A stretch of 35,807 nt of DNA from Actinomycetota bacterium (lineage in GTDB: Bacteria > Actinomycetota > Thermoleophilia > Miltoncostaeales > Miltoncostaeaceae), in the NCBI GenBank assembly GCA_963169235.1, contig CAUJCX010000034.1:1-35807 (forward strand), given 5' to 3'. Shown piece by piece: positions 16,474-32,175 of the stretch. Made by a program: the position numbers and the translations under genes. Each line of letters opens with the position of its first letter. Position 1 is the stretch's first letter. The notes under the pieces were generated by a model. That model was not told where the DNA came from and ran no database searches. It saw only the letters and a program-made list of their open reading frames with translations.

Positions 16474-17883
16474 GTGTCCACGTCTGCACACCCTGAGCTC
16501 GACGGAATCGGGCAGTACAAGTTCGGCTGGCACGACCCGACGCACTACGCGTCCGAGCCCAAGAAGGGCCTCAGCGCCGATGTGGTGCGTGACATCTCGG
16601 CGCTCAAGAACGAGCCCGAGTGGATGACCAAGTTCCGCCTGCGGGCGTTGCAGCTGTTCGACAAGAAGCCGATGCCGACGTGGGGCGCCGACCTGTCGGA
16701 AATCGACTTCCAGGACATCTACTACTTCATCCGCGCGGCCGAGAAGCAGGGGCGCGACTGGGACGAGGTGCCGCCGGACATCAAGCGGACGTTCGACCGC
16801 CTGGGCATCCCCGAGGCCGAGCAGAAGTACCTGTCGGGCGTGTCGGCCCAGTACGAGAGCGAGGTCGTGTACCACTCGGTGCGCGAGGACCTCGCCAAGA
16901 TGGGCGTGATCTTCTGCGACACCGACACGGCCCTGCGCGAGCACGAGGAGCTTCTGAAGAAGCACTTCGCCACCGTGATCCCGCCCGGCGACAACAAGAT
17001 GGCGGCGCTCAACAGCGCGGTGTGGTCCGGCGGGTCGTTCATCTGGGTGCCCGCGGGCGTCCGCGTGGAGGTGCCGCTGCAGGCGTACTTCCGCATCAAC
17101 CAGGAGAACATGGGGCAGTTCGAGCGCACGCTGATCATCTGCGAGCCCGGATCGTTCGTGCACTACGTCGAGGGCTGCACGGCCCCGACGTACTCCGGCG
17201 ACAGCCTGCACTCGGCGGTGGTGGAGATCATCGTCAAGGAGGGCGCGCGCTGCCGCTACACGACCATCCAGAACTGGTCGAACAACGTCTACAACCTCGT
17301 CACCAAGCGCGCCGTCTGCGAGGAGAACGCCACCATGGAGTGGGTGGACGGCAACCTGGGTTCCAAGGTCACCATGAAGTACCCGGCGGTGTGGCTGAAG
17401 GGCCGCGGCGCCCGCGGTGAGGTGCTGTCGGTGGCGTTCGCCGGCGAGGGGATGCACCTGGACGCCGGCGCCAAGATGGTGCACGTGGCGCCCGACACGT
17501 CGTCGACCATCGTCAGCAAGTCCATCTCCAAGGACGGCGGGCGCGCGGGCTACCGCGGCCTGGTGCAGGTGGACCCCGGCGCGACCCGCGCCAAGGCCAG
17601 CGTCGTGTGCGACGCCCTGTTGCTCGACGACGACAGCCGCTCCGACACGTACCCGTACATGGACATCAACGAGGAGAACACGTCCATCGGGCACGAGGCG
17701 ACGGTGTCGAAGGTGGCGGACGACCAGATCTTCTACCTGCAGAGCCGCGGCCTGTCCGAGGAGGAGGCCACCGCGATGATCGTGCGTGGCTTCATCGAGC
17801 CGATCGCGAAGGAGCTCCCCATGGAGTACGCGGTCGAGCTGAACCGCCTGATCGAACTTCAGATGGAGGGCTCCATTGGCTAG
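16474..17883 (+). CDS. sufB: Fe-S cluster assembly scaffold SufB
   Basis: A 469-residue subunit of the SufBCD scaffold on which iron-sulfur clusters are built in the cytosol. It spans the whole family: an N-terminal segment ([20 protein letters not shown]), the beta-helix core with [20 protein letters not shown], and the conserved end [20 protein letters not shown] followed by [20 protein letters not shown]. At the place of the E. coli Cys405 it has FYLQSRG, the normal form in Gram-positive SufB. First gene of an eight-gene operon (16474-22691) behind a very strong ribosome site and likely repressed by SufR. Confidence 0.97.
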
Positions 17884-19108
17884 TTGGGTCGCCGAGACGC
17901 GCGACGAGGCCGAGCGCAACCTCGCGTCCCTCCCCGCCCTCACGGGGCAGGAGGAGGACTGGCGCTTCACCAAGCCGGCGTCGCTCGGCATGGACGGAGC
18001 GCCGCTGGACGCGCCCGGCCCCAGCGGCTCCCCGCGCGTGGGCGACGAGGCCGGCCGCGCGGCCTGGCTGGTGCTGGACGACGGCCGGCCCGCCGCGCCG
18101 AACGTGGTCGACCTGCCCGACGGCGTCATCGTGGCCGAGCTGTCCGACGCGCTCACCGCGCACGAAGACCTGGTGCGCGCCCACCTCAACTCGCTGGTGG
18201 GCATCGACTCGCACGCCGGCGCGCTGAACGCGGCCCGCTGGGACGGCGGCCTGTTCGTGTACGTCCCCCGCGGCGTGCACGTCGAGCGGCCCATCGAGGC
18301 CGTGCTGACGGCGACGGGCGCCGAGGGACGCATCTACGGACGCACGCTGGTGGTGCTGGAGGAGGGCGCCAAGGCCACCGTCATCGACCGCTACGTCTCG
18401 CCCGACCTGGGCGGCACGGTGCAGGCGTCGACCGTGGCCGAGCTCGTGGTGGCCCAGGGGGCCGAGCTCGAGCACATGACGTCGGTGAGCTGGGGCAGTG
18501 GCGTCCATCACCACGCCACCATCGCCGCGGCGGCCGGCCGTGACTCGAAGGTGCGCAGCGTCGTGGTGACGCTGGGCGGCGACGTGGTGCGGGTCGAGCC
18601 GACCCTGCGCGTCGTCGGCCCCGGTGCCGACGCGCGGGCGCTGGGCCTGTTCTTCGCGTCGGACGATCAGCACTTCGAGCACCGCGTGGTGTCGGTGCAC
18701 GAGGCGCCCGACTCGTACAGCAACCTGCTGTACAAGGGCGCGCTCAAGGACACCAGCCGCACGGTGTTCTACGGCAACCTCATCGTGCCGCCGGGTGCCC
18801 CCCACACCGACGCGTACCAGACCAATCGCAACCTCATCCTCAACGACGGGGCGTCCGCCGAGACCATCCCGTTCCTCGAGATCGAGACGGCCGAGGTGAA
18901 GTGCTCGCACGCCGGGGCCGTCGGCCGCGTGGACGACGAGCACCTGTTCTACCTCCGCTCGCGCGGCGTGCCCGAGGTGGAGGCCAAGCAGCTGATCGTG
19001 CTGGGCTTCCTCCAGGAGGTGCTCGAGATGGTGGCGCTGGAGGAGCTGCGCGAGGAGCTGCACGAGGCCATCGCCGCGAAGCTGACCCCCAAGGTGGCCG
19101 CGTCGTGA
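17876..19108 (+). CDS. sufD: Fe-S cluster assembly scaffold SufD
   Basis: A 410-residue partner of SufB in the SufBC2D complex. It has the SufD N-terminal domain ([19 protein letters not shown]) and the beta-helix core ending in [20 protein letters not shown], where the His corresponds to the one used by SufD, followed by [17 protein letters not shown]. The start is TTG at 17876, inside the last codons of sufB (8-base overlap); GGAGGG lies 5 nt upstream of it within sufB, which supports this rare start and shows tight coupling. Confidence 0.95.
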
Positions 19109-19431
19109 TCGACGTCGCCGCGTTCAGCGACCTTGAGGACGAGACCCCGGTGCGGGTCGACGTCAAGGGCATACCGGTCTGTCTGGTGCGGATGAACGAC
19201 GTCGTGCACGCGCTGCACGACGTGTGCACGCACGCGCAGGCCTCGCTGGCCGACGGCGTGGTGTACGACGGCGTCATCGAATGCCCGCGGCACGGGGCGC
19301 AGTTCCGCCTCACCGACGGGGCCGTGATGGCTCCCCCCGCGTCGCAGCCGGCGCCGCTGTTTCCCGTCGAGATCCGCGACGGCCGGGTGCTCGTCGACCC
19401 CGTGCCGTCGTACCCCCACCCTTTTCACTGA
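19105..19431 (+). CDS. Rieske-type ferredoxin of the suf operon
   Basis: A 108-residue soluble protein with one Rieske 2Fe-2S site: CTHAQAS and, seventeen residues after its His, CPRHGAQF supply the two Cys and two His. Such small ferredoxins lie between sufD and sufC in many actinobacteria and are often named as oxygenase ferredoxin subunits, but here there is no oxygenase; an electron-supplying role in cluster assembly is the likely reading. The start GTG overlaps the sufD stop in GTGA. Confidence 0.88.
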   Translation: MIDVAAFSDLEDETPVRVDVKGIPVCLVRMNDVVHALHDVCTHAQASLADGVVYDGVIECPRHGAQFRLTDGAVMAPPASQPAPLFPVEIRDGRVLVDPVPSYPHPFH

Positions 19432-19453
19432 CCCGACCCGGAGAAGATTTCGC

Positions 19454-20221
<768 letters not shown>

Positions 20222-20234
20222 CACCCGCATCGCC

Positions 20235-21479
20235 GTGACGGAGGCCCGCCTGGACTCCCTCGCCGTCCGCGCCGACGTGCCGATCCTCGCACGGCCGTCG
20301 GCGTCGGGCAGGCCCCTCGTCTACCTCGACTCGGCGGCCACGTCCCAGAAGCCGATGCCGGTGCTGGACGCGATGGACGACTACTACCGGGCGGCCAACG
20401 CCAACGTGCATCGGGGCGTCTACGCGCTGGCCGCCGAGGCCACCGAGCGCTTCGAGCAGGGCCGCGCCGATGTCGCCCGCTTCGTCGGCAGCCGCCCCGA
20501 GGGCACGGTGTTCGCCAAGAACGCCACCGAGGCCGTGAACCTGGTGGCGTACGCGTGGGGCCTGCGCCACCTGACCGCGGGCGACGTGGTGGTGGTGACC
20601 GAGATGGAGCACCACTCCAACATCGTCCCGTGGCAGATCGTCGCGGGGCTCACGGGCGCCCGCGTGGAGTTCGTGCCGGTGGTCGACGACGGCGTGCTCG
20701 ACCTCGCGGTGCTCAGGGACCTGCTGGCGACGGAGCCCGTGAAGATGGTGGCCGTGGTGCACGTCTCGAACGTGCTGGGCACCATCAACCCCGTCGCCGA
20801 CATCACCCGCATGGCCCGCGACGCGGGCGCGCGCAGCCTGGTGGACGCCTCCCAGAGCGTGCCGCACATGCCGGTGTCGCTGGCGGCCACCGGCGCCGAC
20901 GCGATGGTGTTCACGGGCCACAAGATGCTGGGCCCCACCGGCATCGGCGTGCTGGCGGCCGACCCCGCGTGGCTGGACGGCCTCGAGCCGTTCCTCGGCG
21001 GCGGCGAGATGATCAGCGACGTGCGCCGCGAGGGGTCCACGTGGGCCGACCTGCCGCACAAGTTCGAGGCGGGCACCCCTCCCATCGCGGAGGCGGTCGG
21101 CCTGGGCGCCGCCGTGCGCTACCTCGAGGGCCTCGGCATGGACGCGGTGCGCGCGCACGAGGTCGAGCTCACCACGCGCCTGCTCGCCGTGCTGGGCGGC
21201 GTGGAGGACGCCACGGTGTACGGCCCGCGCGACCCCGCGCGGCGGGGCTCGCCGGTGAGCTTCTCGCTGCCCGACCTGCACCCGCACGACATCGCGCAGC
21301 TGGTCGACCGCGAGGGCGTGTGCGTGCGCGCCGGCCACCACTGCGCCAAGCCGCTGATGCGGGCGCTGGGCGTGCCGGCCACCACCCGCGCCAGCACGTA
21401 CGTGTACAACACCGCCGACGACGTCGACGCGCTGGGCGCGGCGCTCGCGTCGGCGCGGGCGTTCATGGGACGGGTGTGA
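20235..21479 (+). CDS. sufS: Cysteine desulfurase SufS
   Basis: A 414-residue PLP enzyme of the SufS/CsdA (class II) type that takes sulfur from L-cysteine to form a persulfide. Motifs: EMEHHSNIVPWQ near residue 121, the PLP-binding Lys in FTGHKMLGPTGIGVL, GEMISDVRREGSTW, and the catalytic Cys in RAGHHCAKPLM near residue 370. It passes sulfur to SufU, whose gene is next and overlaps by one base (TGATG). GTG start, 13 bases after sufC. Confidence 0.96.
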   Translation: MTEARLDSLAVRADVPILARPSASGRPLVYLDSAATSQKPMPVLDAMDDYYRAANANVHRGVYALAAEATERFEQGRADVARFVGSRPEGTVFAKNATEAVNLVAYAWGLRHLTAGDVVVVTEMEHHSNIVPWQIVAGLTGARVEFVPVVDDGVLDLAVLRDLLATEPVKMVAVVHVSNVLGTINPVADITRMARDAGARSLVDASQSVPHMPVSLAATGADAMVFTGHKMLGPTGIGVLAADPAWLDGLEPFLGGGEMISDVRREGSTWADLPHKFEAGTPPIAEAVGLGAAVRYLEGLGMDAVRAHEVELTTRLLAVLGGVEDATVYGPRDPARRGSPVSFSLPDLHPHDIAQLVDREGVCVRAGHHCAKPLMRALGVPATTRASTYVYNTADDVDALGAALASARAFMGRV

Positions 21480-22709: not shown

Positions 22710-24797
22710 TCACCGCGTAAGGCCGTCGCGCCGGTCGATCACCAGGTTGCTCCCCTCCATCGCCTTGCCCGTGGCCTTGAGCTCGGCGGCGATCTCGCCC
22801 ACCCGGATGTAGTCGCTGACGCCGCTCGTCTCCGAGTTCACGGCGCAGATGGTCATGGTCATCACGGGGAACGTCGTGTGGCGGTCGTGCCGATCGGTGG
22901 CTGTGATGCCGCCGTGCTCGAGGTCGGCCGCGTCGTAGAAGTCGTGGATCATCGCGTCGAACCCCTCGGCGGTGCTGAGGCAGATCGCCTCGAACCGCGT
23001 CGTCGCCGCGACCACCACGAAGTCGTCGCCCCCGATGTGCCCCACGAAGTCGTCGCGCCCGCCGTGCTGGGCCAGCGCGCTCTGGATGAGGCGCGCCGTC
23101 TGCTTCAGCACCAGGTTGCCGCGGCTGTATCCGTACCGGTCGTTGAACGGCTTGAAGTTGTCGAGATCGAACATGCAGAACGCGAACGGGACGCCCTGGT
23201 CGAGGCGCCGCTGCACCTCGAGCTCGATGCTGACGCCGCCGGGCAGGCCGGTGAGCGGGCTGGCGTCGCGGTACGTCGCCTCCAGCTCGATCAGCCGCCG
23301 GGTCATCTCGTTGAAGCCGTCCACGAGCCGGGCGATGTCGCCCTTGGCCGCCACGTGCGTGTCGCCGCGCAGGTCCCCCTGGGCGATGCGCTGCACCTTG
23401 CGGCTGAGCTCGCGCACGGGGCCGGCGGTGTTGTCGAGCATCTGGTTGATGGCCCCGGCCATCTGCCCCACCTCGTCGCGCGAACGCACGGTGGTGCGCT
23501 TCGCCAAGTCGCCCGTGGCGGCGATCTCGTGCAGCTCGCCGCGGATGGTCTCGAGCGGCGCCAGCGTGCGCCGCACCACGAACCAGATGAGGGCCAGCAG
23601 CGCGGCCAGGCCGATCAGCGAGATCAGGATGTCGCGGCGCTGGGCGGCGTCCGCGTGGGCCATCGTGTCCTTCTCCGACACGCTGGTGAGCAGCTTCCAG
23701 CCCACCTCCGGCACGGTCGCGAACGCCACCAGGCGCCGCTCGCCGGCGATCGTCCACTCGACGACGCCCGAGCCGCGTCCGCGCGTGGCGTCGTACAGGC
23801 GGGCGATGTCGCGATGGGACGGGTTCTCCATGAGGTCGGGGTCGTCGTACGTGCGCACGCGGTCGCCGAGCGCGTCGTCGCGGCTGGAGTAGATGTACTT
23901 CGGGCGGGCGGGCACGAACGCGGTGTCCCTCTCGGTGCCCCGCGAGAAGATGGTGATCTGCGCGTCGCGCTGGTTGAACGAGCGCAGGAGCGCGTCCATG
24001 ATCGGCTTGATCGAGATACCGGCGGCCAGCGTCCCCCGGGTGCCGTCCACGGTGATGAACGTACCGCCGCTGACCAGCGCCTCCTTGGTGCGACGCTCGG
24101 CGTAGGGCTCGGTGAACACCACCCGGTGCCGCCCGGCCGCCTGGCCCGCGAGGTACCACGGGCGCTCGAACGGGCTGTACGGGGCGTCCACCCGCGCGTC
24201 GGGTACCCACAGCGACGAGTCCTGGTACTCGTCGTACCGGCGCATGGTGGGGTCGGGGTCCGTCGAGCGCACGCCGATGTAGAAGAACTTCATGCCGTCG
24301 CCGAACTTGTTGCCGGGCGCCGTCACCGTGGCCAGCATCTTTCGCAGCTGCGGCGTGAGCCGGGCGTCCGACAGCTCGTCGCCGCGCCGGTAGGCGGCGA
24401 GCTTGCGCCGGAACGACTGGGCGTAGATGCGTCCGCGAGGCGTGTCGTCGAACACCTTCTCGCCCGTCAGCGCCGCGATGTGCACCCACATCTGACCGCG
24501 CGTGTCGTACCACTCCAGCTCGTCGCGCACGGCCAGGAGGATGGTGGCGCGATCGTGGAACACCGACGAGATGGTGTGCACGTAGCCGTCGTTGCGGCTC
24601 TGCAGGTCGTGCAGCACCGACTGGCGCAGCTGTGACCGGGAGTTGTTGGACGTCACCATGATGACGATCAGGAAGACGACGATCACGACGCTTCCCGTCA
24701 GCAGCACCAGCGTGTTCCGGATCGAGCGGCCGGGCAGCCAGCGGGTCACGGAGCCTCGCCGTGGGCGCCGGTGCGGGCGTGCGGGCGCACGCGACAT
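22710..24797 (-). CDS. Membrane GGDEF-domain protein with extracytoplasmic sensor and two HAMP domains
   Basis: A 695-residue signalling protein. Membrane helix 1 (about residues 30-48) is followed by a large outside domain of the Cache type (about 50-395), helix 2 (ISLIGLAALLALIWFVV), two HAMP domains (LAPLETIRGELHEIAATGD and GPVRELSRKVQRIAQGDLRG), and a GGDEF domain from about residue 510. That domain opens TGLPGG and has DLDNFKPFNDRYG, but its signature is GGDDF (589-593), with Asp for Glu, and there is no RxxD inhibitory site upstream. So cyclase activity is uncertain; it may instead bind nucleotide as a sensor. The ATG has no ribosome site. No EAL domain. Confidence 0.88.
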   Translation of the reverse strand: MSRAPARPHRRPRRGSVTRWLPGRSIRNTLVLLTGSVVIVVFLIVIMVTSNNSRSQLRQSVLHDLQSRNDGYVHTISSVFHDRATILLAVRDELEWYDTRGQMWVHIAALTGEKVFDDTPRGRIYAQSFRRKLAAYRRGDELSDARLTPQLRKMLATVTAPGNKFGDGMKFFYIGVRSTDPDPTMRRYDEYQDSSLWVPDARVDAPYSPFERPWYLAGQAAGRHRVVFTEPYAERRTKEALVSGGTFITVDGTRGTLAAGISIKPIMDALLRSFNQRDAQITIFSRGTERDTAFVPARPKYIYSSRDDALGDRVRTYDDPDLMENPSHRDIARLYDATRGRGSGVVEWTIAGERRLVAFATVPEVGWKLLTSVSEKDTMAHADAAQRRDILISLIGLAALLALIWFVVRRTLAPLETIRGELHEIAATGDLAKRTTVRSRDEVGQMAGAINQMLDNTAGPVRELSRKVQRIAQGDLRGDTHVAAKGDIARLVDGFNEMTRRLIELEATYRDASPLTGLPGGVSIELEVQRRLDQGVPFAFCMFDLDNFKPFNDRYGYSRGNLVLKQTARLIQSALAQHGGRDDFVGHIGGDDFVVVAATTRFEAICLSTAEGFDAMIHDFYDAADLEHGGITATDRHDRHTTFPVMTMTICAVNSETSGVSDYIRVGEIAAELKATGKAMEGSNLVIDRRDGLTR

Positions 24798-26065: not shown

Positions 26066-27514
26066 TCAGCGCGCCGATGTGGCGCGCCCGGTACCCGTGA
26101 CGGGGCCGGTGGGCCGGTCGACGTCGGCGCCCACGACCACGGCGCCCGCGGCGGCGTCCGGGCCCGCGGGGGTGCCGCCGGGGGCCTCGGTGCCCTGCGA
26201 CGTGAGGCCCGCGGCCTGCGGGGTCGCCTCCCACGCCTGAAGGAACGCGAACGGATCGACGCTGGCGCCGTCGACACCGCCCGCCGGGTGGATCTCGAAG
26301 TGCAGGTGCGGCGGCGTGGTGGCGGCCTGGCCCGTGTTGCCGACGTACCCGATGACGTCGCCCGCCCGCACCACGGCCCCGTCGACGGCCGAGGCGGAGT
26401 ACGCCGACAGGTGCGCGTAGTAGTACGCCGCGCCCCCGCCGTCGGTGAGCCACAGGCGGTTGCCGCCCAGGTCGTTCCAGCCCACCTTCGACAGCGTGCC
26501 GTCGGCGACGGCCACCACCGGAGTGCCCACGGGCGCGAACACGTCGTTGCCGTGGTGCCAGCCGGTGCCCGCGCGCGGTGCCCCGTAGTCGTCCGAGTAC
26601 GTGTAGGCCCCCTGCACCGGGAAGCGGTTGCCCTGCACGCCGGTCGCCGCGGGCTCGGTGCCGGGCAACGCGTGCGCCTCGGGCCGCACCGGGGCCTGGG
26701 GCGCCACGGGCACGGTGGGCGCCGCGGGGCTGACGCGGATGGGCGGACCCACCCGGTCGGGGCGCGTGGCGGGGTCGGTGGTGTCGGGACGCCCCGGCTC
26801 GGCCGACGCGTCCGGCGGGCCGGCGGGCGCCGCGTCGGGCGGCGCGGCCGGCAGCGGCACAGTCACAGCGGGGGCGGACAGGTCGGCCCCGGCGCGCGCG
26901 GTGACGTCGAAGTGGCCGATCACCAGGGGCGCCTGCCCGGCCGTGCCGTCGGCGCTCACGCGCAACACGTTGACGCGCACGGTGCCGTCGGCCTCGCGGG
27001 TGGACTCGCCGAACGCCACCTCGCCCGCGCCGGGTACGCTGATGACGGTGCCGGGGCCCACGGGCACGGGCTGGTCATCGACCACCACCCGTCCCACCTG
27101 CAGGTAGTCGAGCGCCGCATCGCCGGAGGCGGAGTCGGCGTGGCCGGCGACGCCGGCGCTGAGCGAGTCCACGATCACCCGGCCACCGAACAGCCGGATG
27201 CCCGACGCGGTCACCGTGCCCCGCAGGTCGCTGCCGTCGGTGCCGCGCTCGGCGCGCGCCACCACCACGACGGAGCCCACCTGGCCGCGGTCGTCGGCGA
27301 TTCCGGCCGCCCGGGCGCTGCGCCGGGCCGTGCCCGCAACGTTCGCAACAGCGGTCGCGGAGCCGCCGGATTGGCTGAGAACCCCGTAGCCACGCACGCT
27401 CGCGGCCCCCGGGGAGGGTGCGGCCCCCTGCGCCACCTGCAACGCGGCGTTCACGCCCACGGGCGACACTGCGGCGGTGGCCACGACCACCGCGATCTTC
27501 AACCGTGACTTCAC
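26066..27514 (-). CDS. Secreted M23-family metallopeptidase (LytM-type)
   Basis: A 482-residue exported cell-wall peptidase. A signal peptide (VKSRLKIAVVVATAAVSPVG) leads to a beta-rich region of about 200 residues resembling the repeats of choice-of-anchor proteins (SGIRLFGGRVIVDSLSAG, VRVNVLRV), then a Pro/Ala linker, then the M23 domain from about residue 300. Zinc ligands are intact: His320-x3-Asp324 in WHHGNDVFAPVGTP and the HLHFEIHP motif, with YYYAHLSAY between. It should cut peptide cross-bridges in peptidoglycan. GTG at 27514 is chosen from the signal peptide and a CAGAAT box 6 nt upstream. It faces the NlpC/P60 gene. Confidence 0.9.
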   Translation of the reverse strand: MKSRLKIAVVVATAAVSPVGVNAALQVAQGAAPSPGAASVRGYGVLSQSGGSATAVANVAGTARRSARAAGIADDRGQVGSVVVVARAERGTDGSDLRGTVTASGIRLFGGRVIVDSLSAGVAGHADSASGDAALDYLQVGRVVVDDQPVPVGPGTVISVPGAGEVAFGESTREADGTVRVNVLRVSADGTAGQAPLVIGHFDVTARAGADLSAPAVTVPLPAAPPDAAPAGPPDASAEPGRPDTTDPATRPDRVGPPIRVSPAAPTVPVAPQAPVRPEAHALPGTEPAATGVQGNRFPVQGAYTYSDDYGAPRAGTGWHHGNDVFAPVGTPVVAVADGTLSKVGWNDLGGNRLWLTDGGGAAYYYAHLSAYSASAVDGAVVRAGDVIGYVGNTGQAATTPPHLHFEIHPAGGVDGASVDPFAFLQAWEATPQAAGLTSQGTEAPGGTPAGPDAAAGAVVVGADVDRPTGPVTGTGRATSAR

Positions 27515-27520
27515 GTTGCC

Positions 27521-27526
27521 ATTCTG
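27521..27526 (-). promoter_or_regulatory. -10 box of the M23 gene (leaderless)
   Basis: CAGAAT on the minus strand ends 6 nt before the GTG at 27514. Confidence 0.4.
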
Positions 27527-27598
27527 CCGACCGCGGCGGACCACGCCCAGGTTAAAGGGCGACGCGTTGCAGTCCGACACCAAGTGCACCGCCCCGGT

Positions 27599-27627
27599 TT
27601 GACCACGCCGCAATTTCCGACAATCAT
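27599..27627 (+). promoter_or_regulatory. Possible promoter of the NlpC/P60 gene
   Basis: TTGACC (27599-27604) and AATCAT (27622-27627) are 17 bases apart, with 5 and 4 consensus matches. This would leave a leader of about 70 nt. Confidence 0.35.
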
Positions 27628-27702
27628 GGGTGGTCCGCGACATGCCCCGCGTCGCTGTCCCCCGCTCCCCAGCGAGGAGTTCCGCCGATCCGCTCTGATC
27701 GC

Positions 27703-28851
27703 TTGACTGTCGGTACCCGTCTGACCGCCGGTGTGCTGACCACGTGCGCCCTGCTGGTCTCCGTACCCGCCGCGGTCGTCGCCGAGCCGGCCAAGATCGC
27801 CGAGCAGCGCGCCCAGGTGGAGCGCCTCGAGGCCCAGCTGGCCGACATCGACGCGCAGGCCGGGCGGGCGGCGGAGGCCTACAACGGGGCCCGCTGGCGC
27901 CAGCAGCAGATCGAGGGGCGCATCGAGGTCAACACCCGGCGCACCACCGACACGACCAAGCGTCTGCGGCGCTCGCAGGCGACGCTGGCCGAGCGCCTGC
28001 GCGGCATGTACGCCAACCCCGAGCCGTCGCTGGTGGAGATCATCGCGTCCAGCGGCAGCGTGGTGAGCGCGGTCGACGGCGCCCAGCTGCTCGAGCGCAT
28101 CGGCCGGCGGGACGGCGCCACGGTGGTGGCCGTCCGCACCGACCTGGGGCAACTGAAGCGCGCGCGGGTGCAGCTGAACGAGGATCGCGCGGCCGTGAAG
28201 GTGCAGGTCACCGAGGCCGCCCGCCAGCGCGAGCAGGTGCTGGCCATCCTGGCCCAGCGCAAGCGACTGGTGGATGGCGCCCGCGGCGAGCTGCGCACCA
28301 TGCTGGCCGCCGAGGAGGCCCGCAAGCGCCGCGAGGCCGAGGAGCAGCGCCGGCGTGCGGAGGAGGCCCAGCGCGCCATCGCGGCCGCAGAGCGCCGCAA
28401 CAGCCCCAGCACCCCGGCGTCGCCCTCCACGCCCTCCTCGCCGTCCGCCCCGTCGTCGCCGTCGTCGCCGGCCGCTCCCGCCGCGCCCCTCCCCGACGCC
28501 ACCGGCAACGCCGCGGCCGTGCAGGTGGCCATGCGCTACCTGGGCGTGCCGTACGTGTGGGGCGGAGCGTCCCCCTCCGGCTTCGACTGCTCCGGCCTCA
28601 TGTCGTACGCGTACGCGCAGATCGGCAAGAACGTGCCCCACTACACCGGGGCCATCTGGGCGGCGTTCCCCAAGGTGCCCTCCAGCGACCTGCAGCCCGG
28701 CGACATGGTGTTCTTCTACAGCGACCTGCACCACGTGGGCATGTACATCGGCAACGGCCAGTTCATCCACGCGCCGCACACCGGCGACGTGGTGAAGATC
28801 TCGTCGCTGTCAGAGCGCGCATCGGTGTACGCCGGAGCCGTCCGCCCCTGA
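27703..28851 (+). CDS. Secreted NlpC/P60 peptidoglycan endopeptidase with coiled-coil domain
   Basis: A 382-residue exported enzyme. Signal peptide (LTAGVLTTCALLVSVPAAVV), then a long coiled coil (residues about 30-230, AEQRAQVERLEAQLADIDAQ onward), a Ser/Pro linker, and the C-terminal NlpC/P60 domain with a complete triad: Cys296 in GFDCSGLMSYAY, His344 in HHVGMYIGNG, His356 in FIHAPH. This layout is that of RipA-type daughter-cell-separation hydrolases, which the coiled coil keeps inactive until needed. The start is TTG at 27703, as no ATG or GTG in frame precedes the signal peptide; the only ribosome site (GAGGAG) is too far, so the start is less certain than the gene. Confidence 0.9.
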   Translation: MTVGTRLTAGVLTTCALLVSVPAAVVAEPAKIAEQRAQVERLEAQLADIDAQAGRAAEAYNGARWRQQQIEGRIEVNTRRTTDTTKRLRRSQATLAERLRGMYANPEPSLVEIIASSGSVVSAVDGAQLLERIGRRDGATVVAVRTDLGQLKRARVQLNEDRAAVKVQVTEAARQREQVLAILAQRKRLVDGARGELRTMLAAEEARKRREAEEQRRRAEEAQRAIAAAERRNSPSTPASPSTPSSPSAPSSPSSPAAPAAPLPDATGNAAAVQVAMRYLGVPYVWGGASPSGFDCSGLMSYAYAQIGKNVPHYTGAIWAAFPKVPSSDLQPGDMVFFYSDLHHVGMYIGNGQFIHAPHTGDVVKISSLSERASVYAGAVRP

Positions 28852-28867: not shown

Positions 28868-30718
28868 TCACCCCAGGCGCCGGTCGACGTAGCACCAGCG
28901 CCAGGCCTCACCGGGCTCGGCGCTGCGGATGACGGGGTGCCCCGTCTCGTCGTGGTGCCGGGTCGCGTGGCGCGCCGGTGAGCTGTCGCAGCAGCCCATG
29001 GCGCCGCACGCCACGCACTGGCGCAGGTTCACCCACTGCGTGCCCTCGGCCACGCACGCGGGGCACACGTCACCGGGGGGTGGCAGGCTCGGGCTGTCGG
29101 GGGCGTTCAGGTGGACGCAGCGCTCGTCCCAGCGGCCGCGGACGTCGGCGTCCCGAGCGTGCCGATCACGCTCGATCACGCGGCCCAGCACGACCTCCTC
29201 CAGGTCGACGGCGCTCAGCACGGGCCGCAGCACCTCGCTGTCGTAGCGGCCGCTGTCGCGCTGGGCCAGAAGCTCGGCCCGTTCCGCGTCGAGCATCTCG
29301 CGTCGCAGCCGTGCGTACGTGGCCGCCGGTGAGTCGGAGCCGGGCCCGACGGCCTCCCACAGCGCGTCGGCGCGCGAGTCGGCGGCCGCCCGCAGCCGGG
29401 CGATCACCTCGGGCGGCTCGTCGCCGGTGACGATGGCCTCCAGGCGGTCGTGCCCCGCCTGCACGGCCCGCTGGTAGACCGATGCCTGCTGCAAGAGGTC
29501 CTCGTGGAACCCGGGGCCGCGCACCCCCAGCCGGCGGGTCAGCCACGGCAGCGTGAGGCCCTGCACCGTCAAGGTCAGCACGGTGACGGCGAACGCGATG
29601 AACACCAGCACGTCGCGGTGCACGGTGTCGACCGGCAGCAGGAACACGGCGGCCAGCGTCACCACGCCCCGCATGCCCGCCCATCCCACCACCAGCAGCT
29701 CGCGACCGCCGAGCGCCGCGTCGCCCGGGGCCCGCAGGAGGCGCGCCCCCCACGCGGCCGACACCCACGCCATCCGCAGCACGACGGTGGCCGCGAACAC
29801 GCCCGCGGTGGCCAGGGCGATGGTGAGCGCCGGCACGCCGGCGTCGGCCACGTTGCCCAGGATGGTGCGCAGTTGCAGGCCGATCAGCAGGAACACGGCC
29901 CCCTCGAGCACGAAGCCGATGGTGGCCCAGTTGGTGCCCTCCAGCAGGCGTGACTGGGCCGACTGGATGGCTGGGGAGGCGTGCCCGACGATGAGGCCGG
30001 CGATCACCACCGCCAGCACGCCCGACGCGTGGAAGTGCTCGGCCGGAAGGTACGCCAGCCACGGCGTCACCAGCGACAGGCCCACGTCGGTGAGGGTGTC
30101 GTCCACGTGGCGGCGCACCTTGGCGACGGCGAACGCGACGGCCACGCCGACGACCGCGCCGCCGACGGCCGACAGCAGCACCTGCTGGCCCAGCCAGCCC
30201 AGCGTCACGGTGCCGCCCAGCGCCGCGATGGCCGCCCGCAACGCCACCAGCGCCGTGGCGTCGTTCAGCAGGCTCTCGCCCTCGAGCACCGACACCACCC
30301 GCCGCGGCATCCCCACCTGGCGCGCCACGGTGGTGGCCGCGACGGCGTCCGGGGGCGCCACCACGGCGCCCAGCGCCAGGGCGGCGGCGAACGACACCGG
30401 CAGCAGCCACCAGGCCACCACGCCGACGCCGACCGTGGTGAACAGCACGAGGCCCACCGACAGCATCCCGATGGCCCGCGCGTCGCGGCGCACGTCCACC
30501 AGCACGGTGCGGATGGCGGCGTTGTAGAGCAGCGGCGGCAGCAGGCCCAGCAGCACCAGGTCGGGCGTCAGCTCGACGGACGGCGCCCGGGGCACGAGCG
30601 ACACGCCCATCCCGACCACCAGCAGCGCGAGGGGTCCGGGCAGGCCCACCCGCCGGGCCCCGGCCGAGACGGCCAGCACCAGGACTCCGATGACCACCAC
30701 ATCGACGGCGGTTTCCAC
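28868..30718 (-). CDS. CPA1-family Na+/H+ antiporter with C-terminal UBP-type zinc finger
   Basis: A 616-residue membrane protein. Residues 1-410 are a cation/proton exchanger with about twelve helices; motifs include LGLLPPLLYNAAI, the pore-region GAVVAPPDAVAATTVARQVG, EGESLLNDATALV, and GWAGMRGVVTLAAVFLLP. A charged cytosolic helix region follows (about 420-530). The last 80 residues are a UBP-type zinc finger with all ligands: CVHL, CPAC, CVACGAMGCCDSS, RHATRHHDETGHPVI and WRWCYVD. In eukaryotes this finger binds the free end of ubiquitin; in bacteria its ligand is unknown, possibly a C-terminal Gly-Gly tail. GTG start with a CAGACT box 6 nt upstream. Confidence 0.92.
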   Translation of the reverse strand: METAVDVVVIGVLVLAVSAGARRVGLPGPLALLVVGMGVSLVPRAPSVELTPDLVLLGLLPPLLYNAAIRTVLVDVRRDARAIGMLSVGLVLFTTVGVGVVAWWLLPVSFAAALALGAVVAPPDAVAATTVARQVGMPRRVVSVLEGESLLNDATALVALRAAIAALGGTVTLGWLGQQVLLSAVGGAVVGVAVAFAVAKVRRHVDDTLTDVGLSLVTPWLAYLPAEHFHASGVLAVVIAGLIVGHASPAIQSAQSRLLEGTNWATIGFVLEGAVFLLIGLQLRTILGNVADAGVPALTIALATAGVFAATVVLRMAWVSAAWGARLLRAPGDAALGGRELLVVGWAGMRGVVTLAAVFLLPVDTVHRDVLVFIAFAVTVLTLTVQGLTLPWLTRRLGVRGPGFHEDLLQQASVYQRAVQAGHDRLEAIVTGDEPPEVIARLRAAADSRADALWEAVGPGSDSPAATYARLRREMLDAERAELLAQRDSGRYDSEVLRPVLSAVDLEEVVLGRVIERDRHARDADVRGRWDERCVHLNAPDSPSLPPPGDVCPACVAEGTQWVNLRQCVACGAMGCCDSSPARHATRHHDETGHPVIRSAEPGEAWRWCYVDRRLG

Positions 30719-30795: not shown

Positions 30796-32175
30796 ATGAC
30801 CCGTGCCTTCCGACTACTCGCGGGGCTTGCGGTGGCCGGTGCCCTGGCCGCCGTGTCTCCCGCCTACGCCCAGACCGTCTCCGACGCCGCGGACGCCGTG
30901 GCCGCGTCGCCGCGCGTGGAGCGCGCGCAGGAGCGCATCGCCACCGCCCAGGCCCAGGCCGACGCGGCCTCGGCGCGCCTGGCGGAGGCCCGCGCCCGCC
31001 TGGCGGCCGCGGCGCCCGAGGACGCGCCCGCACGCCGGCGCGACGTCGAACGATGGGAGGCCGTGAAGGACCTGCGCGTGCAGTCGGTACACGAGAGCGC
31101 CGAGTCCGCGGCCCAGATCGCGCGCGAGGAGGCCGACGCCGCGGCGAAGGACGCGGCCGTGCTGGACGAGCCGGCTCCCCAGGCGCAGGAGTCGCTCACC
31201 GGCATCGTGCTGGCCCCGCAGGCGGCGGCGACCGCGAGCGCCACCGCGACGGCGCCCGCGGCCGCACCCGCCTCCCCGGTGGCCGCCTCCCCCGCGGTGA
31301 CCACGTCGCCGGACGCCGCCGCGATCGACGCGTTCCTGGCCTCCAAGGGCAGCCCGCTGACGGGCCTGGGCGCCGTGTTCGTGGCCGAGGGCGACGCCGT
31401 CGGGCTCGACCCGCGCATGCTGGTGGCCATCGCCGGCGCGGAGACCGCGTTCGGCACGTACGGCCCCAGCCAGGGCATCCACAACCCGTTCGGCCTCGGC
31501 CCGGGCATGCAGTTCGCCACGTGGGCGGACGCCATCCGCTACGCCGCGCGCAACCTCGCGGGCCCGCTGTACCGCGGCGCCGGCCACGTCACCATCCCCG
31601 CGATCAACGCCGTCTGGGCCCCCGCGGGCGCGTCCAACGACCCCACCAACCTCAACTCCCACTGGTCGGGGAACGTCTCGACGTACTATGCGGCGCTGGG
31701 CGGCGACCCGTCCGGCTCGGTGTTCACGGGCGTGGCGGCGCCCGCCGCGGACGCGGCCGCGGCCATGCCGTTCGCCCCGTCCGGGGGCCTGGCGGCCGCC
31801 ACGGTGACGAACACCGGCCCCAAGGCCGCCGAGGACGCGCTGACGATGCTGGGCACGCCCAACGCCGCCGACGCCGACGGCGGGCTGGACGACATGGGCC
31901 TGGTGCGGGCCGTGTACCAGGCGCAAGGGGTGGAGCTGCCTGACCGTCCCAACGCGGTGGGCGTGGCGGGCGTGTCGGTCTCACCCGACCAGTTGCGTCC
32001 CGGGGACATCCTCTTGTTCGGCGGGCCCGACACCGGCAACGACGTCACCCACATGGGCCTGTACGCCGGCGGTGGCGTGTTCGTGCACGCGCCCGGGGCG
32101 GGCGACGTGGTGCGCCTGGCGTCCCTGTACGACGCGGCGTGGGCCAACGCGTACCTGGGTGCCCGCCGCGTCTGA
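30796..32175 (+). CDS. Secreted muramidase-like protein fused to an inactive NlpC/P60 domain
   Basis: A 459-residue exported protein. Signal peptide (LLAGLAVAGALAAVSPAYA), an Ala-rich coiled coil (about 28-125), an Ala/Thr/Pro linker, then a lysozyme-fold glucosaminidase-like domain (about 175-310) with the likely catalytic Glu216 in AIAGAETAFGTYGPSQGIHN, followed by NPFGLGPGM. The C-terminal 115 residues have the NlpC/P60 fold (LRPGDILLFGGPDTG, VTHMGLYAGGGVFVHAPG) with His419 and His431 kept, but the Cys motif DCSGL reads DDMGL (residues 365-369), so the nucleophile is lost. This domain probably binds wall peptide rather than cutting it. ATG at 30796 is chosen because GGAGG lies 5 nt upstream. 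Its end is 2 bases from the convergent deacetylase. Confidence 0.85.
   Translation: MTRAFRLLAGLAVAGALAAVSPAYAQTVSDAADAVAASPRVERAQERIATAQAQADAASARLAEARARLAAAAPEDAPARRRDVERWEAVKDLRVQSVHESAESAAQIAREEADAAAKDAAVLDEPAPQAQESLTGIVLAPQAAATASATATAPAAAPASPVAASPAVTTSPDAAAIDAFLASKGSPLTGLGAVFVAEGDAVGLDPRMLVAIAGAETAFGTYGPSQGIHNPFGLGPGMQFATWADAIRYAARNLAGPLYRGAGHVTIPAINAVWAPAGASNDPTNLNSHWSGNVSTYYAALGGDPSGSVFTGVAAPAADAAAAMPFAPSGGLAAATVTNTGPKAAEDALTMLGTPNAADADGGLDDMGLVRAVYQAQGVELPDRPNAVGVAGVSVSPDQLRPGDILLFGGPDTGNDVTHMGLYAGGGVFVHAPGAGDVVRLASLYDAAWANAYLGARRV

Follow-up and report, generated by a model that had tools for sequence, protein, structure and literature searches.

A predicted GH73-type glucosaminidase fused to an NlpC/P60 domain that lacks its catalytic cysteine

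The window, which is the whole stretch of 35,807 nucleotides analysed here, carries on its forward strand a gene at 30796..32175 (ATG at 30796, end of the stop codon at 32175) encoding a probably secreted protein of 459 aa composed of a coiled coil, a GH73-like glucosaminidase domain and a Cys-less NlpC/P60 domain. All features of this gene are given on the same strand. A probable signal peptide, recognised by eye in the translation, covers approximately residues 1-26 (30796..30873) and ends in ...SPAYAQ, suggesting that the protein is secreted. The structure of the protein was modelled with AlphaFold2 from an alignment of 15 orthologues (mean pLDDT of 74.7, with much of both domains above 80). 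The coiled coil (residues 39-123; 30910..31164) was predicted as two long helices, which span 39-71 and 74-123 with pLDDT values mostly of 80-97, which agrees with the coiled coil placed ahead of the glycosidase in the original prediction. The GH73-like N-acetylglucosaminidase domain, assigned by fold match and phmmer, occupies residues 170-315 (31303..31740), and Glu216, its predicted catalytic acid, is encoded at 31441..31443. The NlpC/P60 fold without the catalytic Cys, assigned by Pfam and fold match, occupies residues 338-459 (31807..32172). In this domain, DDMGL (31888..31902) stands where enzymes have DCSGL, so that the Cys position, residue 366, is Asp, and the second and third catalytic positions are retained as His419 (32050..32052) and His431 (32086..32088); the latter is Asn in the orthologue of genome G015 and Gln in that of G012. 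The residue numbers given earlier (E216, D365, D366, M367, H419 and H431) were all exact in the translation.

Two other wall genes lie upstream. A conserved neighbour at 27703..28851 on the forward strand encodes a RipC-like coiled-coil NlpC/P60 protein with an intact DCSG motif (Pfam E=1.5e-28; synteny); it matches the NCBIfam RipC model along its full length (E=1.9e-34), under the strict cut-off of that model. This is the active NlpC/P60 protein that had been placed ca. 2 kb upstream, and its actual distance is ca. 1.9 kb; it shares the strand of the fusion gene and is syntenic. Divergent from it, a conserved M23 (LytM) peptidase gene was found at 26066..27643 on the reverse strand (Pfam E=1.2e-22; synteny). 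Within this gene, ARAGORN reported an undetermined tRNA at 26157-26242, very probably a spurious prediction in GC-rich DNA. Between the two NlpC/P60 genes lies a Na+/H+ antiporter-like gene (28868..30718, reverse strand), which is named by sequence appearance only and was not found at the loci of relatives in the sequence comparison. The conserved gene order is M23, the divergent coiled-coil DCSG NlpC/P60 gene, the fusion gene and three further genes, which we take from their appearance to encode a cobalamin adenosyltransferase-like, a CAP-domain protein-like and a CCA-adding enzyme-like protein. The fusion gene follows the DCSG NlpC/P60 gene on the same strand at every locus with enough contig. 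Since the locus was present without the fusion gene in five genomes (G005, G008, G009, G011 and G018), the RipC-like neighbour is the core component and the fusion an accessory one. Elsewhere in the window, an ordinary suf iron-sulphur operon (16474-21479), containing genes for two SufBD-core proteins, an ABC ATPase and a class V aminotransferase, and a gene for a HAMP-GGDEF protein (22713-24797) were observed.

The glycosidase half had been called a muramidase, a name that did not hold, as its fold and Glu216 fit GH73 N-acetylglucosaminidases instead. The closest solved GH73 structure to the domain model was the glucosaminidase of Clostridioides difficile Ecd09610 (8yxk; Z=17.4), followed by pneumococcal LytB (7pj3; Z=14.3) and Staphylococcus aureus AtlE (4pi7; Z=12.1). 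In a phmmer comparison, the glycosidase region matched 8yxk with E=4.9e-5, and Glu216 was aligned to a Glu of Ecd09610. The single catalytic residue shared in GH73 is one Glu (Glu138 in AtlE; PMC5330529). Since the Pfam PF01832 score was only 18.9 bits, under the gathering cut-off of 30.2, with all orthologues scanned also below the cut-off, this divergent domain is labelled here as GH73-like. Glu216 and 46 other GH73 columns were invariant in all 15 orthologues, indicating that the domain is strongly constrained. From the sequence and the model, we infer that it would cleave glycan at the GlcNAc-MurNAc bond as a GH73-type N-acetylglucosaminidase using Glu216.

The NlpC/P60 half retains its fold. 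Pfam NLPC_P60 (PF00877) matched residues 363-458 with E=1.5e-15 and 57.5 bits (gathering cut-off, 23), and structure modelling, proposed with the original prediction, gave a papain-like NlpC/P60 fold with Z up to 19.3 (rmsd of 1.9 A over 119 residues) and pLDDT values of 82-93 over most of the domain; the NlpC/P60 structures matched with Z values of 15-19. As for the residues of a catalytic C40 peptidase, the nucleophilic Cys is absent (Asp366), and both His419 and the third polar residue, His431, are present. The Pfam match begins at position 13 of the profile, leaving the earlier part of the profile, which bears YVWGG, unmatched. In active NlpC/P60 enzymes, the YVWGG motif precedes DCSG. The NlpC/P60 label of an annotation alone is no proof of endopeptidase activity.

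Orthologues were collected from a sample of 42 genomes of the family to which the window belongs, 15 of which carried one. A contig scan with the single protein had yielded two distant matches only, and the orthologues came from a whole-genome search; all 15 belong to this family. A profile search of 299 genomes of the class gave no full-length fusion outside the family among the matches listed, and the fusion candidates found elsewhere proved to be GH73 proteins that had either a different partner or none, or SLT-like lysozyme-fold domains joined to a DCSG NlpC/P60 domain. The NlpC/P60 domain was kept in 14 of the 15 orthologues; two of them (G007 and G010) have DCSG, and the Cys is absent from the other 12. 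The motifs of the Cys-less forms are DDMG, DDVG, DAAA (2), DDAG (2), DAAG (2), NDVQ, NDVE, TDAQ and SPEE. The absence of the Cys is shared by most orthologues, and the exact motif, whose conservation had been in question together with it, varies from one orthologue to another. Given the Pfam and fold matches and the 12 Cys-less copies among 14, the loss of the catalytic Cys from a domain that keeps its fold and both His is confirmed. The alternative of a sequencing or assembly error, or of a recent mutation in one genome, might be raised by the draft state of the assembly (65 contigs), yet it is refuted by the orthologues and deserves practically no credence: G001, which is of the same genus as the window, has DDVG, and ten further separate assemblies are also Cys-less.

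The changes extend beyond the Cys. YVWGG (residues 350-364 in the window protein; 31843-31887) is lost in every Cys-less orthologue, indicating that the active site was altered more widely. Of the 12 Cys-less forms, 11 retain His419 and 10 retain His431. Residue 434 (32095-32097) is Gly in all 11 better-preserved Cys-less copies, that is, in all except that of G003, whereas the two Cys-bearing copies have His or Arg there; judged from the alignment, Gly434 is a derived mark of the Cys-less clade. Asp366 had been named as the nucleophile, and the retention of both His positions could be taken to mean that the domain is a still-active hydrolase with Asp366 as an alternative nucleophile. However, four orthologues (G006, G015, G012 and G025) have Ala at residue 366 and that of G003 has Pro; Asp366 is therefore one replacement among several rather than a nucleophile. 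In addition, all Cys-less forms are without YVWGG and without the Ser of DCSG, and we know of no NlpC/P60 enzyme with an Asp nucleophile. An active hydrolase is therefore considered very improbable. The orthologue alignment and the fold matches support the view, already taken in the original prediction, that a lysozyme-fold glycosidase and a peptidase-dead NlpC/P60 domain are joined in one protein of the wall-hydrolase type.

Two orthologues have gone further. The copy of the domain in G003 is very degraded, and in G004 (G004:C156; L015, L049) the whole NlpC/P60 domain is deleted, the gene ending directly after GH73 and the next gene starting within a few bases of its shortened end. Since active, dead, badly degraded and deleted forms occur at one conserved locus, the effect of losing the peptidase is testable on natural versions of the protein.

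The age of the loss was evaluated with trees. In an rpoB tree, for which two other families served as the outgroup, the Cys-bearing G007 and G010 branched early and the Cys-less genomes formed one group (86/88), suggesting that the Cys was probably lost once. A single Cys-less clade was also seen in the tree of the NlpC domain (99/95), and one Cys change suffices on the locus tree. The tree of the GH73 domain placed G007 and G010 weakly beside G013, G020 and G023 (80/79), a topology that would require more than one loss or a regain; it was set aside because its support is weak and the rpoB and NlpC-domain trees disagree with it. The Cys and YVWGG were thus probably lost a single time, in a common ancestor of several genera that make up most of the gene-bearing genera of the family, and the majority of its descendants retain the dead domain. 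Close relatives with a Cys, for which a search had been suggested, were not seen among the orthologues; the Cys was found only in the two early-branching genera, which argues that the loss is old.

Whether the dead domain has been under constraint since then was assessed from sequence identities. Over 45 pairs of Cys-less genomes, the mean identity was 70% in GH73 and 73% in the active NlpC domain of the neighbour but 52% in the dead domain, which was less identical than the NlpC domain of the neighbour in 44 of these pairs. In the one Cys-bearing pair (G007 and G010), the values were 76% for GH73, 69% for its own NlpC/P60 domain and 67% for the NlpC domain of the neighbour. For the dead domain, close pairs gave a dN/dS of 0.10-0.21, indicating purifying selection, by the Nei-Gojobori method, which is crude at this GC content; values for distant pairs are unreliable at this GC content. 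The frame of the dead domain was open in 12 genomes of five genera, and its core positions were invariant. Since the dead domain evolves faster and yet shows low dN/dS and open frames, the constraint was relaxed after the loss, but not wholly. The main rival to a functional reading is slow decay, in which the dead domain would be a remnant with hardly any function left, drifting to loss because its peptide cutting was redundant with the RipC-like neighbour. Slow decay would account for the faster change of the dead domain than of its partner domain in 44 of the 45 pairs, set against a Cys-bearing pair in which it is as slow as the partner, for the gradation of forms, which runs from active in G007 and G010 over Cys-less to badly degraded in G003 and deleted in G004, and for the wandering of residue 366 among D, A and P. 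On the other hand, neither the open frames and the dN/dS values in close pairs nor the fact that the 11 better-preserved copies share an invariant His419 and the newly acquired Gly434, all kept after an old loss, would be expected under free decay. We regard decay as a serious but rather unlikely explanation, and the pattern as more consistent with a role that is altered and reduced than with none.

The protein was compared with known systems to see what such a role might be. Dead NlpC/P60 domains are rarely described, and RipD (Rv1566c of Mycobacterium tuberculosis; PDB 4jxb and 4lj1) was the main example found; as summarised in PMC12067865, which cites Both et al. 2014, RipD is a non-catalytic NlpC/P60 protein that binds peptidoglycan. 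It shares with the window protein an NlpC/P60 fold without the catalytic residues and was among the structural matches to the dead domain (Z=15.3). It differs in that its dead domain is N-terminal, with penta-peptide repeats at the C terminus and no glycosidase, and in that its triad positions are Ala-Ser-Glu as against Asp-His-His. As the NCBIfam RipD model NF033743 gave a weak match of 27.4 bits against a cut-off of 215, the window protein was not filed as RipD. Ecd09610 has GH73 and NlpC/P60 domains in the same order; however, both of its domains are active, its catalytic Cys, His and Asp being reported as conserved (PMC9405191), whereas the peptidase of the window protein is dead, and it is an endolysin of the phage type, unlike the product of the window gene, which lies in a conserved chromosomal wall locus. 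Enzymes of the RipC/CwlO type, to which the product of the adjacent gene corresponds, likewise have a secreted coiled coil followed by NlpC/P60, but possess the catalytic Cys and no glycosidase domain; RipC is regulated by FtsEX (PMC12067865). CwlT-type bifunctional wall hydrolases (such as PDB 4fdy and 4hpe) also combine a lysozyme-fold glycosidase with a C-terminal NlpC/P60 domain; the window protein departs from them in the lost Cys of its peptidase and in a glycosidase half for which GH73 glucosaminidases are the best fit.

On this evidence, the protein is somewhat more probably than otherwise a secreted GH73-type glucosaminidase in which the one-time peptidase domain has turned into a non-catalytic module for wall binding or positioning, with the neighbour cutting peptides. 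The ancestor would have been a bifunctional protein with a working NlpC/P60 Cys. The signal peptide would direct the export of the present protein, the coiled coil would hold it, and the GH73 domain would cut glycan strands with Glu216. The folded, peptidase-dead domain may use its old substrate cleft to keep the glucosaminidase on peptidoglycan or to set its orientation there, in a RipD-like manner, and the stem peptides at the same place would be cut by the adjacent RipC-like NlpC/P60 enzyme. A partnership with the active NlpC/P60 or the M23 enzyme, as put forward in the original prediction, is hinted at by the shared locus only. Against such a module, the loss of YVWGG next to the active site means that the old substrate may no longer bind, the deletion in G004 and the degraded copy in G003 suggest that the role of the dead domain is not essential everywhere, and several related genomes carry the locus without the gene.

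The genome of the window also contains a paralogue (L053:3692-4855, reverse strand; G000:C47, near 126 kb) in which GH73 is fused to a LytM/M23 fold. Its GH73 domain matched 8yxk with Z=17.2, and its LytM fold matched EnvC and DipM with Z values of 11.0 and 11.3, respectively. Since this fold has no conserved His, the metal ligands of M23 are missing. At least 13 further genomes of the family contain relatives of the paralogue. Activation of hydrolases is known for some degenerate LytM proteins (PMC8416486, PMC8360153), and the dead NlpC/P60 domain might similarly be a regulatory pseudoenzyme that binds the RipC-like NlpC/P60 protein (or M23) and switches or recruits it. Such a regulator would be in line with the joint occurrence of the fusion and RipC-like genes at every locus with enough contig, with the predicted coiled coil here and the match of the neighbour to coiled-coil RipC along its full length, and with the presence in the same genome of a GH73 protein fused to a LytM fold without metal ligands, a type of domain that the amidase activator EnvC also has. 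The five genomes that have the partner alone at the same locus imply, however, that the partner needs no fusion protein, and we consider a regulatory pseudoenzyme improbable.

Together with the binding or positioning module preferred above, the paralogue raises the tentative and rather speculative idea that dead peptidase folds, NlpC/P60 in one case and LytM without metal ligands in the other, were repeatedly recruited as GH73 partners in this lineage. The NlpC/P60 version would have gained a new conserved surface at Gly434 and might direct or regulate glycan cleavage beside the RipC-like peptidase, and living relatives would keep the active, two-enzyme form of the ancestor. The same genome encodes another GH73 protein (L054:4358-5113, reverse strand; G000:C26), the N terminus of which might suit a flagellar (FlgJ-like) setting.
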